64,000 bases of DNA, taken from assembly GCF_000224785.1 (NCBI RefSeq), contig NZ_AGAV01000005.1, positions 310,001-374,000 on the forward strand. The letters run 5' to 3'. The notes beneath the pieces were generated by a model. The model was not told where the DNA came from, made no database searches, and was given only the letters and a program-made list of their open reading frames with translations. Position numbers and translations under genes: made by a program. Of the stretch, positions 6,113 through 57,191 are shown in pieces (positions within the stretch are counted from its first letter, which is position 1; the number at the start of each line of letters is the position of its first letter). This DNA comes from Lentibacillus jeotgali. Its GTDB lineage: Bacteria > Bacillota > Bacilli > Bacillales > Amphibacillaceae.

Positions 6113-6973
6113 CTATTTACGAGGGCTGATTTTCTTCAAAATCACACGCTCGATCCATCTCCATGGCAGCAGCTTTTTCAGCCGTGTCATGGTTCTGACA
6201 TTTTTGCCAATGGGGTAACGGAGATCAGGGTTTTCTTCTTGAGCCACCTTGACAATCAGCCGTGCCACTTCTTCGGGATTGTCGGCTGTTTTAGCGATAT
6301 GATTGACGATTTTCAACAATGATTCGTTTTTGTCTCTATATGGAGACTCAGGGTAAGAATTGAAATGGTCCATTCCCTTTGACCAAATATCCGTCTGGTA
6401 GGAACCCGGCTCAACTAATACAACATGAACTCCATAAGGCAGCATTTCGAGCCTGAGCGCTTCACTGAATCCTTCAAGAGCATATTTGGAAGCAGAATAT
6501 GGAGCGAGACCGGGGAGTGCCATTTTGCCGCTAATGCTGGACAAATTAATGATTGTTCCGCGCTGGTGTTTTCTCATATAAGGAAGAACAGCTTTGGTGA
6601 CAGCAATCAAGCCAAAGAAATTTGTTTCAAACTGCTGCCGCCACTCCTCAAGTGGCAGTTCCTCCGTAAAGCCGCCAGCCGCATAGCCCGCATTGTTGAC
6701 TAATACATCAATATTCCCGAAATGTTCGATGATATCTGGTATTTCTGAATCAATATCATCCTGCTTGGTGACGTCTAAGCAGACGCATTCGATGTTGGCT
6801 TCAACACCCTGCTTGCGTGCTTTTTCCAGCAATGTTTCTTTTTTTGCTAAATCTCGCATTGATGCCAGAACGAAATAGCCTGATTCAGCAAATGCCAGGC
6901 TTGTTAGCAGGCCGAATCCTCCTGAGGCCCCTGTAATGAAAACAACAGACCGGTGCTGCTCGGAGACTTTCAT
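6113..6973 (-). CDS. Short-chain dehydrogenase/reductase
   Basis: 286 residues, a classical SDR. The nucleotide-binding motif TGASGGFG is near residue 14, NNAG near residue 91, the catalytic serine in SSISG and the YSASK catalytic Tyr/Lys near residue 160. The C-terminal ~40 residues are basic. It is similar in layout to B. subtilis YusZ-type oxidoreductases. Family members reduce or oxidise alcohol/keto groups with NAD(P); the substrate here is not predictable. It is transcribed alone on the minus strand. A 21-bp repeat array starts about 85 bp upstream of the start codon. Confidence 0.88.
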   Translation of the reverse strand: MKVSEQHRSVVFITGASGGFGLLTSLAFAESGYFVLASMRDLAKKETLLEKARKQGVEANIECVCLDVTKQDDIDSEIPDIIEHFGNIDVLVNNAGYAAGGFTEELPLEEWRQQFETNFFGLIAVTKAVLPYMRKHQRGTIINLSSISGKMALPGLAPYSASKYALEGFSEALRLEMLPYGVHVVLVEPGSYQTDIWSKGMDHFNSYPESPYRDKNESLLKIVNHIAKTADNPEEVARLIVKVAQEENPDLRYPIGKNVRTMTRLKKLLPWRWIERVILKKISPRK

Positions 6974-7057
6974 GTATCGTCACTCCTCTAGGATTCATTT
7001 TAGCAATTACTTGAGGGGCAGGCAATGGGACATCCAGTGCGCAAGACAGCCGGGTTC

Positions 7058-7192
7058 TCTCGCGCGAAATTCGGGCAGAGTCACGCGATTTCGAGCCGCC
7101 CTCGCGCGAATTTCAGGAAGACTCGCGCGATTTCGGGTTACTCTCGCGCGAAATCCAGAAAGAGTCGCGCGAATTTCAGAACGCCGCACGAC
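7058..7192. repeat. 21-bp-period tandem array, copy 1 (GC-rich CGCGCGAAATTC type)
   Basis: The core CGCGA recurs at 7063, 7084, 7105, 7126, 7147 and 7168, exactly 21 bp apart, and a degenerate CACGA follows at 7187 after 19 bp. Units alternate between a GCGAAATTC form and a GCGATTTCG form, so the true period is a 42-bp dimer. The same array with the same polarity and the same final 19-bp step occurs at 49316-49450. Both are intergenic. Confidence 0.9.
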
Positions 7193-7250
7193 CTTGAGTC
7201 ACCGGGCCAGCAAAAAGGACGATACGGCGCTGTATAAGCACTAATGATAG

Positions 7251-7282
7251 AAAAAACCGGGCTGAAATTGGCCCGGTTTTCC
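7251..7282. terminator. Intrinsic terminator between array 1 and the XRE gene
   Basis: ACCGGGC (7256-7262) pairs with GCCCGGT (7271-7277), with an A-run before and TTTT after. It can work on both strands. Confidence 0.75.
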
Positions 7283-7402
7283 TAAGATGCTTAAAAAGCG
7301 GCTCCCAACAAGAAGGATTATAATTAAATGTATTTTCCTTAAAGCAAGTGAATATATCATTAACAGGTATATTTTATCATGCCGAATATTACAGCCAGCT
7401 GT

Positions 7403-7495
7403 TTATCCATTCCTGCCTTTATCGAATGTCTCGTGCAGCGTTTCAATGACATCTTCCTCTTTGTCATTCCGGTTCAACATGTAAAGGTTTATCAT
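7403..7495 (-). CDS. Possible 30-residue acidic small protein
   Basis: An ATG at 7495 follows AAAGG by nine bases and opens a 30-codon frame (MINLYMLNRNDKEED, ending DKGRNG). The composition is charged and plausible for a short helical protein. No family is recognised. It is divergent from the XRE regulator at 7554, whose promoter must overlap this start. Evidence is only the ribosome site and composition. Confidence 0.35.
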   Translation of the reverse strand: MINLYMLNRNDKEEDVIETLHETFDKGRNG

Positions 7496-7553
7496 TTTCA
7501 TCATCCTTTATTTGTTTGACATTAGTCTTGTCCAATCCTGAGGTGATTTATAC

Positions 7554-7970
7554 ATGAAGGAAATAACCATTCAGATCAAAGACGACACGTATTATCAACT
7601 GAAAGAACTGACTGAACTTGAAAATTTAATTAACCGTCATCGGGATACAAACCGGGATGACAATTACCGGATTGAAGATTTTGTAGTTGGCTCCATCATC
7701 GATAAAATGGAGCAGATCAGTCATTTTAATCAAATCAATCCTTTTATCGAAAATGATCATCAGCCGGTCGTTAAGAATCGTTTTAAAGACATTGCAAAGC
7801 AAAAGGGTATATACATCAAGGATATTGCTGATCAATTGAACATGAAGTCGCCCAATATCAGTAAAATATTCAACAACGCCTCACAGCCCAGGTTAGAATT
7901 GTTCATCAAAATTTGGATAGTACTCGGCTGTCCGCCATTACATGAGTGCCTGTACCTTGAAGAAGATTAA
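7554..7970 (+). CDS. XRE-type helix-turn-helix regulator
   Basis: 138 residues. Residues ~85-130 form a lambda-repressor-like HTH (KQKGIYIKDIADQLNMKSP, then NISKIFNNASQPRLELF). The N-terminal ~75 residues are charged and helical, with no recognised domain. The ATG follows GAGGTGA at good spacing. The gene sits just upstream of the holin-like mini-toxin gene at 8163. That may be chance, but a DNA-binding protein next to a toxin gene is worth noting. Target unknown. Confidence 0.75.
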   Translation: MKEITIQIKDDTYYQLKELTELENLINRHRDTNRDDNYRIEDFVVGSIIDKMEQISHFNQINPFIENDHQPVVKNRFKDIAKQKGIYIKDIADQLNMKSPNISKIFNNASQPRLELFIKIWIVLGCPPLHECLYLEED

Positions 7971-46092: not shown

Positions 46093-46331
46093 ATAAAGTG
46101 AAACTTCGTTTAGCGGGACGCTTTTTCCCCCTGAACGTTAGTCGAACAGAATCGGGCATTTAGGGTCAGTTACCCGCCGTCATTTGGCGGATTACTGACC
46201 ATTACATGCGGGATAAAGTGAAACTTCGTTTAGTGGGACGCTTTTCCCACTGAACGTTAGTCGAACAGAATCGGGCATTTAGGGTCAGTTACCCGTCGTC
46301 ATTTGGCGGATTACTGACCATTACATGCGGG
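46093..46331 (+). repeat. Two tandem copies of a ~120-bp structured dispersed element
   Basis: Copies at 46093-46212 and 46213-46331 are nearly identical. Each starts ATAAAGTGAAACTTC, has a hairpin around a CGTTTAG..CTGAACG stem, a constant block AACAGAATCGGGCATTTAGG, a second nested hairpin (GGTCAGT...ACTGACC with inner GCCG/CGGC-like stem) and ends ATGCGGG. A third copy is at 60111-60231 and a fragment in reverse at 51893-51940. There is no coding frame. Confidence 0.9.
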
Positions 46332-46361
46332 ATAAAACCACAATAAATTGAGGGATACGTT

Positions 46362-48089: not shown

Positions 48090-49229
48090 ATGAAAACAGA
48101 GCAGCTCAAGCAGGAAATTATTGCATACAGCGAAGAAATCGGCATCGACAAAATCGGGTTTGCTTCTGCAGATGTATTTGAAGGATTGAAAGAACGGCTG
48201 AAGCGTCAGCAGGAACTCGGTTACCAGTCGGGTTTCGAAAAAGGTTCGATTGAGGAGCGGACAGAACCTGACAGGCTGCTTCCGGAAGCACAATCGATCA
48301 TTTCCATTGCGCTTGCGTATCCATCGCGTATCAAAGATGCTCCGAAAAGTACAAAAGAAGAGCGCCGCGGCGTATTTTGCCGTGCTTCGTGGGGTGTGGA
48401 TTATCACGACGTATTAAAGGAAAAACTCAGCAAACTCTCAGCCTTTATCAAAGAAAAGGTACCTGAAGCGTCGATGAAAGAAATGGTTGATACAGGCGAA
48501 CTGTCCGACAGGGCTGTTGCTGAACGGGCGGGGATCGGATTCAGCGGCAAGAACACCGCGATGATCACACCCGAATTCGGCTCGTATGTTTATCTGGGTG
48601 AACTGATCACAAATCTTTCATTTATTCCGGATACCCCGCTAGAGGATGGCTGCGGCTCGTGTACAAAATGTCTGGACGCCTGCCCGACCGGTGCGCTTGT
48701 TCAGGGCGGACAGCTGAATGCCCAGCGATGCCTTGCATTTTTAACCCAAACGAAAGATTTCATGCCTGATGAATTCCGTCCGAAAATCGGTAATTTCATT
48801 TATGGTTTTGACACGTGTCAGGTCGTCTGCCCGTATAATAAGAAAATTGACTTTCATCACCATCCTGAGTTTGAGCCGGAGCCGGATGTGGCTAAGCCAA
48901 AATTGAAGCCGCTGCTCAGGATATCCAACCGCGAATTTAAAAATATATTCGGGCACATAGCCGGTTCATGGCGCGGGAAAAAACCGCTGCAGCGCAATGC
49001 CCTGATTGCCCTTGGTCACTATAAGGACGAGACGGCTGTTCAGGATATGATTGCCGTTATGAAGAATGATCCGCGGCCGGTTATCCGTGGTACGGCGGCC
49101 TGGTCGCTTGGAAAAATCGGTACACGTGAAGCATTTTTGGCGATTGAATCAGCAATTGAAAAGGAACGTGATGAACAAGTCCTTGCTGAAATGGAAAAAG
49201 GCCTGGCGTTTAAAAAAGGTGTTCTCTAA
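48090..49229 (+). CDS. queG: Epoxyqueuosine reductase QueG
   Basis: 379 residues. It carries two [4Fe-4S] sites: CGSCTKCLDACPTGAL near residue 190 and CQVVCPYNKK near residue 247, plus an N-terminal cobalamin-binding part with RASWGVDYHDVLKEKL. The last ~70 residues are HEAT-like repeats (RGTAAWSLGKIGTREAFLAI), typical of the full-length QueG. It converts epoxyqueuosine to queuosine in the wobble position of tRNAs, using B12. AAAGGAGGC precedes the ATG. A repeat array fills the space after the stop. Confidence 0.95.
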   Translation: MKTEQLKQEIIAYSEEIGIDKIGFASADVFEGLKERLKRQQELGYQSGFEKGSIEERTEPDRLLPEAQSIISIALAYPSRIKDAPKSTKEERRGVFCRASWGVDYHDVLKEKLSKLSAFIKEKVPEASMKEMVDTGELSDRAVAERAGIGFSGKNTAMITPEFGSYVYLGELITNLSFIPDTPLEDGCGSCTKCLDACPTGALVQGGQLNAQRCLAFLTQTKDFMPDEFRPKIGNFIYGFDTCQVVCPYNKKIDFHHHPEFEPEPDVAKPKLKPLLRISNREFKNIFGHIAGSWRGKKPLQRNALIALGHYKDETAVQDMIAVMKNDPRPVIRGTAAWSLGKIGTREAFLAIESAIEKERDEQVLAEMEKGLAFKKGVL

Positions 49230-49315
49230 AATATTAATGTTTTGACACAGAATCTATAAACTGCGACGTAATGACAGTGTATTTTTTGTTCACGATTTCT
49301 GAGTACGAGGAATGC

Positions 49316-49450
49316 TCTCGCGCGAAATCTGGAGGGTGTCACGCGATTTCGTGCCACCCTCACGCGAAATTCAGAGAGTGTCGCGCGATTCTGTGCCACT
49401 CTCGCGCTAAATTCAGAGCGCCACACGACCTTATGCCAGCTTCACGCGAT
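49316..49450. repeat. 21-bp-period tandem array, copy 2
   Basis: CGCGA-type cores lie at 49321, 49342, 49363, 49384 and 49405 (all 21 bp apart), then CACGA at 49424 (19 bp) and CGCGA at 49445 (21 bp). Units alternate GCGAAATTC and GCGATTTCG forms as in copy 1 at 7058, and both copies end with a CACGACCTT module. Intergenic between queG and ogt. Confidence 0.9.
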
Positions 49451-49729
49451 CGAACAACACAAAACTTCGATTGGAAAAAAAGCGAGTCATTCAGGCAGCA
49501 AAAGTATTCCTGCTAGGTTAATGGTTGAGAAATCGGGGCTTTGTCCGTCGTAAAATATAAAGTCCGTAAACAAAACTTAGCGAAGTGTATTTCCGAAGCG
49601 GTATTATCGCACACAAATTTTTCACTATGTCGCAACTTATCTCAACTATGAGGGAAAAGAGCAACGATATTTACAAAAAAGGAAAAGGGCATCGGACACC
49701 TAATTGAAACTACTCGAAAAGAGGCGTTA
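49451..49729. other. Gap between repeat array 2 and ogt
   Basis: No frame with a ribosome site, no strong hairpin and no recognisable promoter pair are visible. It must hold the ogt promoter. Confidence 0.5.
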
Positions 49730-56693: not shown

Positions 56694-57191
56694 TCAGCTG
56701 GTGACTGCTTTTTTTAACAGTTTAATGTCGGATTCCATGTCCATTACTTTTTCGTTTATTGTGTGTTCCATTATTATCTGAAATTCATAATTCTTGGCAG
56801 TTTGTTCTCTGATAATTCGAAGCTGATCTTCGACATTTATGAGTCTGCCATTCATGTCGTTAAACGTTACATCCATGGTATCGAATCTTTCATTGAACGC
56901 TTTGAATTGTCCATCCACAGTATTGAATCTTTCATCGAACGTTTTGAGTTGTCCATCCACGGTATTGAATCTTTCATCGATCGCTTTAAGTTGTCCATCC
57001 ACGGTATTGAATCTTTCATCGAACGTTTTGAGTTGTCCATCCACGGTATTGAATCTTTCATCGATCGCTTTAAGTTGTCCATCCATGGTATTGAATCTTT
57101 CGTCGAACGTTTTGAGTTGTCGATCTGTGGCATCAAATCGGCTATTTAGTTTTTGAATTTCAGTTAGCACCATTTTCATATCTTCGCTCAT
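56694..57191 (-). CDS. Coiled-coil protein built of 14-residue repeats
   Basis: 165 residues. After a short start (MSEDMKMVLTEIQKLNSRF) come about seven 14-residue units of the form FDERFNTVDGQLKA, alternating FDERF...LKA and IDERF...LKT so that the DNA repeat is a 84-bp dimer. The C-terminal ~50 residues (RIIREQTAKNYEFQIIMEH) are helical and not repeated. There is no signal or membrane segment. It is probably a rod-like coiled coil. Similar short proteins in Bacilli are uncharacterised. AGGTGA precedes the ATG. Repeat number could vary between strains. Confidence 0.75.
   Translation of the reverse strand: MSEDMKMVLTEIQKLNSRFDATDRQLKTFDERFNTMDGQLKAIDERFNTVDGQLKTFDERFNTVDGQLKAIDERFNTVDGQLKTFDERFNTVDGQFKAFNERFDTMDVTFNDMNGRLINVEDQLRIIREQTAKNYEFQIIMEHTINEKVMDMESDIKLLKKAVTS
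56880..57130. repeat. In-gene 42/84-bp tandem repeat
   Basis: About six 42-bp units inside the coiled-coil gene, with alternate units nearly identical at the DNA level. This argues for recent unequal recombination rather than slow divergence. Confidence 0.85.

Follow-up and report, generated by a model that had tools for sequence, protein, structure and literature searches.

The arrays described here belong to a family of intergenic repeats in which an 8-bp core, TCGCGCGA, recurs every 21 bp. The focal member lies at position 7060 of a 64,000-nucleotide stretch of the Lentibacillus jeotgali genome (hereafter, the window: positions 310,001 to 374,000 of contig NZ_AGAV01000005.1, assembly GCF_000224785.1). 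The reading that we favor, and to which we give about an even chance, is that the arrays are double-stranded DNA platforms of two-turn sites, which a candidate protein would read cooperatively and which would act in local topology or insulation at gene ends. It is based on the core, its spacing, an intergenic placement on the 3′ side of genes, five positions conserved between species, and the contrast between the core and linkers that diverge like silent sites.

The focal array and its family within the genome

The features of the focal locus are as follows.

6113..6973, minus strand: left neighbor, a short-chain dehydrogenase-like ORF of 286 aa (named by eye)
7021..7329, no strand assigned: stretch holding the array and its 3′ module, without counterpart at the syntenic site of the congener G050 (~60 bp there versus ~309)
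7060..7183, plus strand: focal array, six 21-bp units (8-bp core plus 13-bp linker)
7184..7204, plus strand: degenerate seventh or terminal unit (CCGCACGACC...), resembling the final units of several arrays elsewhere in the same genome
7205..7283, plus strand: 3′ module that also occurs next to other arrays of the genome (match at window 7223-7280)
7403..7501, minus strand: possible short ORF of 32 codons (by eye), within DNA conserved in congeners
7554..7970, plus strand: right neighbor, a 138-aa ORF, HTH-like by eye, present in 8 of 12 genus genomes including this one

The six cores start at 7060, 7081, 7102, 7123, 7144, and 7165, so that every step is exactly 21 bp, as the first-pass annotation of this DNA had reported for CGCGA. 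A core pair with at most one mismatch was found 8 times in the window and in none of 100 dinucleotide shuffles. CGCGA is present in the units as described, but the shared element is wider, consisting of the 8-bp palindrome TCGCGCGA, which is identical on both strands, and a W-W-T step after it. Five of the focal cores have this sequence, the second core is TCACGCGA, and each is followed by a 13-bp linker. Over 7059-7177, TRF gave a score of 145 for period 42 and of 73 for period 21; over 7101-7179, period 21 scored 86. The units follow the order A-B-A-B-A and end with an A-like unit; the alternation noted earlier is therefore present in the focal array, but its 42-bp dimer is imperfect.

The 3′ module contains a terminator-like hairpin, recognized by eye, at 7253-7280 (AAAACCGGGC-TGAAATTG-GCCCGGTTTT), and the module with its hairpin is common to the focal array and two further array loci (L157 and L169), where it forms the right flank. 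Should the ORF at 7403-7501 prove real, the focal array would have a minus-strand gene on each side and its gap would not be divergent. Elsewhere in the window, about six 42-bp repeats at 56870-57125 correspond to a minus-strand 14-residue repeat (DGQLKAFDERFNTV and similar) in an ORF that looks like a coiled coil by eye, and 35750-35936 matches 6S RNA (RF00013, 62.3 bits).

The focal 135 bp had 33 matches in its own genome. CGCGA pairs spaced at 21 bp numbered 141 and 120 on the two strands, compared with 3 and 5 for the reversed control, in totals that include one assembly-duplicated contig stretch. In this duplication, contigs C13 and C14 of the assembly carry the same arrays, offset throughout by 216,676 bp; the C14 arrays (285-303 kb) are inside the genome-wide pair totals and outside the array set. 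The set was drawn from 29 stretches plus the window and had 32 rows, two of which were one interrupted array, giving at least 31 intergenic arrays with three cores or more in the genome, the focal one included; L149, L151, L154, and L160, which have no three-core array, were left out. A genome-wide family phased at ~21 bp is thus supported here and, as described below, extends to other genera.

Within these arrays, 12 of 115 next-core steps were 20 or 22 bp, and one array (L158) alternates between 20 and 21. Exact cores were present in 144 of 210 units, and the core changes comprised 62 transitions and 11 transversions. Their uneven distribution, with 45 in the two 5′ positions and 11 in the two 3′ positions, suggests a recognized site that is more than a simple palindrome, although the orientation of the arrays was set by the motif CGCGA-W-W-Y, which favors the 3′ core side and the W-W-T step. 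Information content was 1.3 to 2.0 bits at core positions and mostly below 1 bit at linker positions, the W-W-T step excepted. Among linker letters, the one retained most often is a T at the third base past the core, after two A/T positions (87% here, 94% in L. kapialis, and 39% in other records), so the conserved site seems to be oriented, with the caveat that orientation was set by that same motif.

At core positions 2 to 7 in this genome, 38 of 41 changes were C-to-T or G-to-A substitutions at CpG steps, the pattern expected from deamination of methylated cytosine. To the left of two arrays (L169:2802-2870 and L158:7977-8045), 20- to 21-bp steps run on with a different core, TCAATCGA/TCGATTGA, a pattern in the sequence which suggests that a core can be exchanged without loss of the period.

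Linker sequences vary between arrays and between species. Among arrays with at least four exact cores, linkers resembled those two units away more closely than their immediate neighbors in 14 of the 19 arrays of this genome (identity two units apart, 0.58 to 0.98 in those 14), in 10 of 16 from L. kapialis, and in 1 of 11 from other Bacillaceae records. The 42-bp dimer put forward as the unit is therefore common in the first two genomes but is not general; it is a lineage habit, and the general unit is 21 bp. Purine-rich and pyrimidine-rich linkers alternated at 108 of 171 neighbor pairs in this genome. The description of the dimer as opposite-sense halves was too strong, since all units of one array run in the same direction and neighbor-linker complementarity was no better than that of shuffled linkers (observed, 3.53; shuffled, 3.56). 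The related claim that neighboring units can pair fared no better: by the same linker measure they matched the shuffles, and single-substitution cores with a complementary neighbor numbered 0 of 60 in this genome, 0 of 6 in that of L. kapialis, and 2 of 17 elsewhere.

Genomic placement and divergence of shared arrays

All 31 arrays listed are intergenic by codon-model gene calls, and two overlap only very weak short calls. Their flanking gene pairs are 17 ++, 2 −−, 11 convergent, and 1 divergent, the last being the focal array. Other gaps of >60 bp in the same stretches were convergent in 20 cases and divergent in 26, a distribution that differs from the 11 and 1 of the arrays (Fisher P = 0.003). 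In tandem gaps, counted by hand, 16 of 19 arrays were closer to the 3′ end of the upstream gene (P = 0.004), and 11 were oriented with the genes and 8 against them (P = 0.65); this indifference of orientation gives no sign of a strand-specific RNA. A strict terminator scan of 30 arrays gave hits at 12 of 41 gene ends facing the array versus 1 of 19 on the other side; because hairpins with a shorter T-run escaped the scan, a terminator ahead of the array is only suggestive. By eye, the array at locus A1 is preceded by a terminator-like hairpin in three species, and the strict scan missed the copy of our own genome. A replication-linked placement was rejected with 14 array loci of the complete G052 chromosome, whose positions relative to dnaA showed no departure from a uniform distribution (KS P = 0.26; mean distance, 0.39 half-chromosome). 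The array loci of G044, which by eye lean toward dnaA, were left out of that test.

Nine pairs of own and relative stretches were considered and eight were examined, L153/L045 (44% alike) having been dropped as a likely paralogue. Three candidate orthologies were rejected: in L163/L086 the arrays occupy different gaps, in L172/L124 the array of our genome sits within a MITE-like insertion, 594 bp away from the gene, and L155/L106 is rearranged. Five arrays of this genome (two in L163, one in L171, the first of L167, and one in L162) share intergenic gaps with L. kapialis arrays (two in L100 and one each in L060, L111, and L091; four loci), where the adjoining genes are 75 to 93% alike in translated matches. 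This shared-gap set makes up 5 of the 31 arrays listed for this genome and, of the L. kapialis arrays in the data set, 5 of 16. In the first shared gap, a degenerate 20/21-bp array is also present in Lentibacillus sp. CBA3610 (L049), as judged partly by eye.

When the shared-gap arrays were aligned in their best register, core positions were identical at 215 of 224 sites, a figure that is partly ascertained because the searches need intact cores and that comes from units which are not independent within one array. Linker positions were identical at 205 of 362 sites (0.57), in a register picked for best linker identity, which favors the linkers. Four-fold-degenerate sites were identical at 700 of 1257 positions (0.56) in eight flanking genes, of which two were read with 7 to 8 stops, two with 2 to 3, and four with at most one; the last four alone gave 459 of 784 (0.59). 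Linker identity is thus close to that of four-fold sites, which indicates that linkers drift like silent sites and that the core does not. The expectation that the arrays are more than decay agrees with a core that looks selected, although biased duplication of intact units could give equal core conservation.

Period, spread, and turnover among relatives

The pair TCGCGCGA-N13-TCGCGCGA was present in 14 of 159 family genomes, representing 7 of 46 genera, and the reversed pattern was present in none of the 159. Within the genus, 7 of 12 genomes had a 21-bp core pair, in 1 to 151 copies, and 5 had none. The 14 genomes held 435 core pairs 11 to 41 bp apart and 357 at exactly 21, a ratio that sets two separate searches side by side; the control gave one match, in G051. 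Pairs off 21 bp, among those listed, were mostly at 20 or 41, with single cases at, e.g., 18, 28, and 36. Pairs 10 to 40 bp apart occurred in 17 of the 159 genomes, including 3 that lacked a 21-bp pair and had one pair each, which is the level of the reversed control of this search (one match in each of 5 genomes). The concentration of core pairs at 21 bp ties the core to a two-turn step in the family, with 20 bp tolerated, and the period was kept in other copies and genera, as the first-pass annotation had anticipated, rather than lost. One array in G045 has six 20-bp steps in a row, and because such steps drift out of helical phase, the case for strict same-face phasing is weakened.

Three cores at 21 bp were found in 77 named stretches, 29 from Bacillaceae (Lentibacillus kapialis, Lentibacillus sp. 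CBA3610, L. sediminis, Virgibacillus, Oceanobacillus, Ornithinibacillus, Halobacillus, and Cerasibacillus) and 48 in unrelated bacteria; these were selected on the 21-bp period and the exact core, so their period alone is no proof. Linkers identical to those of named records point to L. kapialis for genome G047 and to Lentibacillus sp. CBA3610 for G052. In L. kapialis, 171 of 179 cores were exact. Bacteroidales MAGs (L058, L059, L064, L080, L088, L099, L117, and others) carried many 21-bp arrays whose palindromic core is longer (ATCTCGCGCGAGAT in several, ATTCGCGCGAAT in L058 and L080), and some of these arrays lie within long open frames. The query itself required core and period, and the Bacteroidales arrays are probably independent of the Bacillaceae family. 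Near-identical 21-bp arrays (e.g., GGTAGAGCCGTGG plus TCGCGCGA) were seen in the Cellulosimicrobium records L051, L053, L062, L065, L069, L073, L074, L076, L078, L096, L107, and L114. A phage-borne origin was rejected, as the exact pair occurred in 23 viral-contig stretches and in none of them as a run of three or more cores.

The focal array and its module were absent from the single available syntenic gap, in G050, and no core was found upstream of the homologue of the 138-aa gene in the other matching congeners, where the neighboring genes differ. The focal copy, which sits next to a terminator-like module, looks to have been gained in this lineage. The window holds a second array, on a carrier of its own.

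49216..49651, no strand assigned: MITE-like repeat that carries the second array; comparable sequence occurs in L170 (437 bp at 93%) and L173 (467 bp at 81%)
49318..49409, plus strand: second array, five units, flanked by a queG-like and an ogt-like gene (both named by eye)

This carrier has short imperfect inverted ends (15 of 19 matching in 19-bp ends). Of 11 congeners, the queG-ogt gap was <40 bp in 7 and ~190 to 590 bp in 3, the G050 stretch being without ogt, and no core was found in any of the 10 gaps. The gap of G052 contains an insertion with ends that look similar by eye. Because the arrays of the window are absent at comparable congener sites, they look like recent gains, and the position-conserved arrays look older; together with the 5 of 12 genus members that lack the 21-bp pair, these absences indicate that the arrays are dispensable.

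Of the 31 arrays listed, 17 had flank sequence in common with another array, within 300 bp to one side or both, and 14 had none. Given such carriers, new copies may partly hitchhike on MITE-like repeats, and the locus-specific linkers suggest that arrays would grow and shrink by whole units. Another intergenic repeat forms a 119-bp tandem duplicate at 46093-46336 of the window; by eye, its relatives lie beside the L174 array and downstream of the homologue of the 138-aa gene in L199.

Candidate mechanism, rival explanations, and known systems

A conserved core, two-turn spacing, indifference to the direction of transcription, and rarity in promoter gaps together are best fitted by a double-stranded DNA site that is read by protein. 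A candidate DNA-binding protein would read an oriented site, approximately GCGCGA-W-W-T, within the palindrome TCGCGCGA. The repeat of two helical turns would place several molecules on roughly the same face, where they could cooperate, and a placement at gene ends that avoids promoters would suit an effect on local topology or insulation over promoter control. The protein-binding or nucleoid role that the first-pass annotation had drawn from the strict phasing thus stays a candidate; the genus members that lack the 21-bp pair, the even spread of the G052 loci relative to dnaA, and the 20-bp steps count against it. A more specific version, which we regard as doubtful, is that an undescribed DNA-binding protein of Lentibacillus and related Bacillaceae forms multicopy filaments at gene ends, shaping local supercoiling or insulating neighboring genes, with selection fixing position, core, and spacing and leaving the intervening sequence free to vary.

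The main rival is that the arrays are selfish or neutral STAR-like minisatellites, in which intact-core units are preferentially duplicated, e.g., by hairpin-aided slippage, and dispersed via MITE-like repeats. This is a serious contender that we nevertheless expect, on balance, to be wrong. It accounts better than the platform for dispensability and for a copy number that is uneven among congeners (0 to 151 pairs), and it is favored by linkers homogenized per locus, by carriage within MITE-like repeats, and by the absence of the focal array from one syntenic congener and of the second array from 10 congeners with queG next to ogt; STAR elements behave alike (PMC3532100). It accounts more poorly for conserved position, since five arrays keep their place between species whose silent sites are only 56 to 59% identical. 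Hairpin-driven expansion alone, moreover, does not fix 21 bp over unrelated linkers, and the single-strand DNA fold of the focal array is unremarkable (z, −1.23).

If the arrays were instead transcribed as 3′ UTRs and folded into paired-core hairpins, their location on the 3′ side of genes, the ability of cores to pair with one another, and the terminator-like hairpin seen by eye after the focal array would be expected. We consider such an RNA element improbable, because orientation relative to genes is mixed (11 with, 8 against), single-substitution cores almost never have a complementary neighbor, linker complementarity equals that of shuffles, the single-strand DNA fold does not stand out, the array had no Rfam match at the gathering threshold, and at locus A1 the hairpin precedes the array in the three species examined by eye. 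A protein-coding heptad repeat has next to no chance of being correct. Although 21 bp is seven codons and open frames cross the focal array, the single-base steps (20 or 22 bp), the location of arrays between codon-model genes with only two touching very weak short calls, and the silent-like drift of linkers all argue against translation, in keeping with the pseudo-protein view of the first-pass annotation.

Returning to the platform reading and its main rival, the family offers a clean test, in that core and spacing persist, linkers reach silent-site divergence, and equivalent loci can be identified in different species. A binder, if there is one, would be a new chromosome-organizing or insulating protein of Gram-positive bacteria; otherwise, the arrays would show that expansion of repeats can by itself imitate selection on a binding site. 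In both cases, the open frames across arrays can mislead gene callers.

Among known systems, STAR is the nearest kind in behavior. According to the report on STAR in Staphylococcus (PMC3532100), those elements are likewise GC-rich intergenic direct repeats in a low-GC Firmicute, with locus-specific spacers, loci that vary between species, and copy numbers that are very uneven among relatives; STAR-type intergenic repeats are given no assigned function there. STAR has the consensus T(G/A/T)TGTTG(G/T)GGCCC(C/A) and a recurring spacer of at least 40 bp (PMC3532100), whereas our arrays have an 8-bp palindrome, 13-bp linkers, and a step of ~21 bp. The 14-bp STAR consensus was found 0 times in the window at up to one mismatch and 0 times exactly in 216 loci. 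Since both consensus and spacing fail, the arrays are not classed as a STAR element.

REP/BIME sequences (PMC3733652) are also high-copy extragenic palindromes, mostly downstream of genes and in tandem or convergent gaps, and they carry GTAG or CGTC tags. Within 4 nt of 145 exact cores, GTAG/CTAC occurred 0 times and CGTC/GACG 6 times. The genome has a single Y1 transposase match (PF01797), and its 3,333-bp locus lacks TCGCGCGA. With the tags and a repeat-flanked transposase both missing, a REP/RAYT assignment was rejected.

The arrays also share the regular repeat-spacer look of tandem repeats mistaken for CRISPR, as characterized in PMC5294841; spacer diversity is lacking in both, and the spacers here are 13 bp. 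The first-pass annotation had set CRISPR aside for lack of spacers and cas genes; on the side of the spacers, the recurrence of linkers two units away (0.58 to 0.98 in 14 of 19 arrays) led us to reject a CRISPR array.

A term search of PMC2267715 returned no mention of Oceanobacillus, tandem, or CGCG. No earlier description of this array family was found among the open-licence papers listed by the searches. Plasmid iterons are direct repeats of about two turns that are bound by one initiator protein; unlike iterons, the present arrays are scattered over the chromosome at dozens of sites. The family may represent a protein-binding repeat of an undescribed kind.
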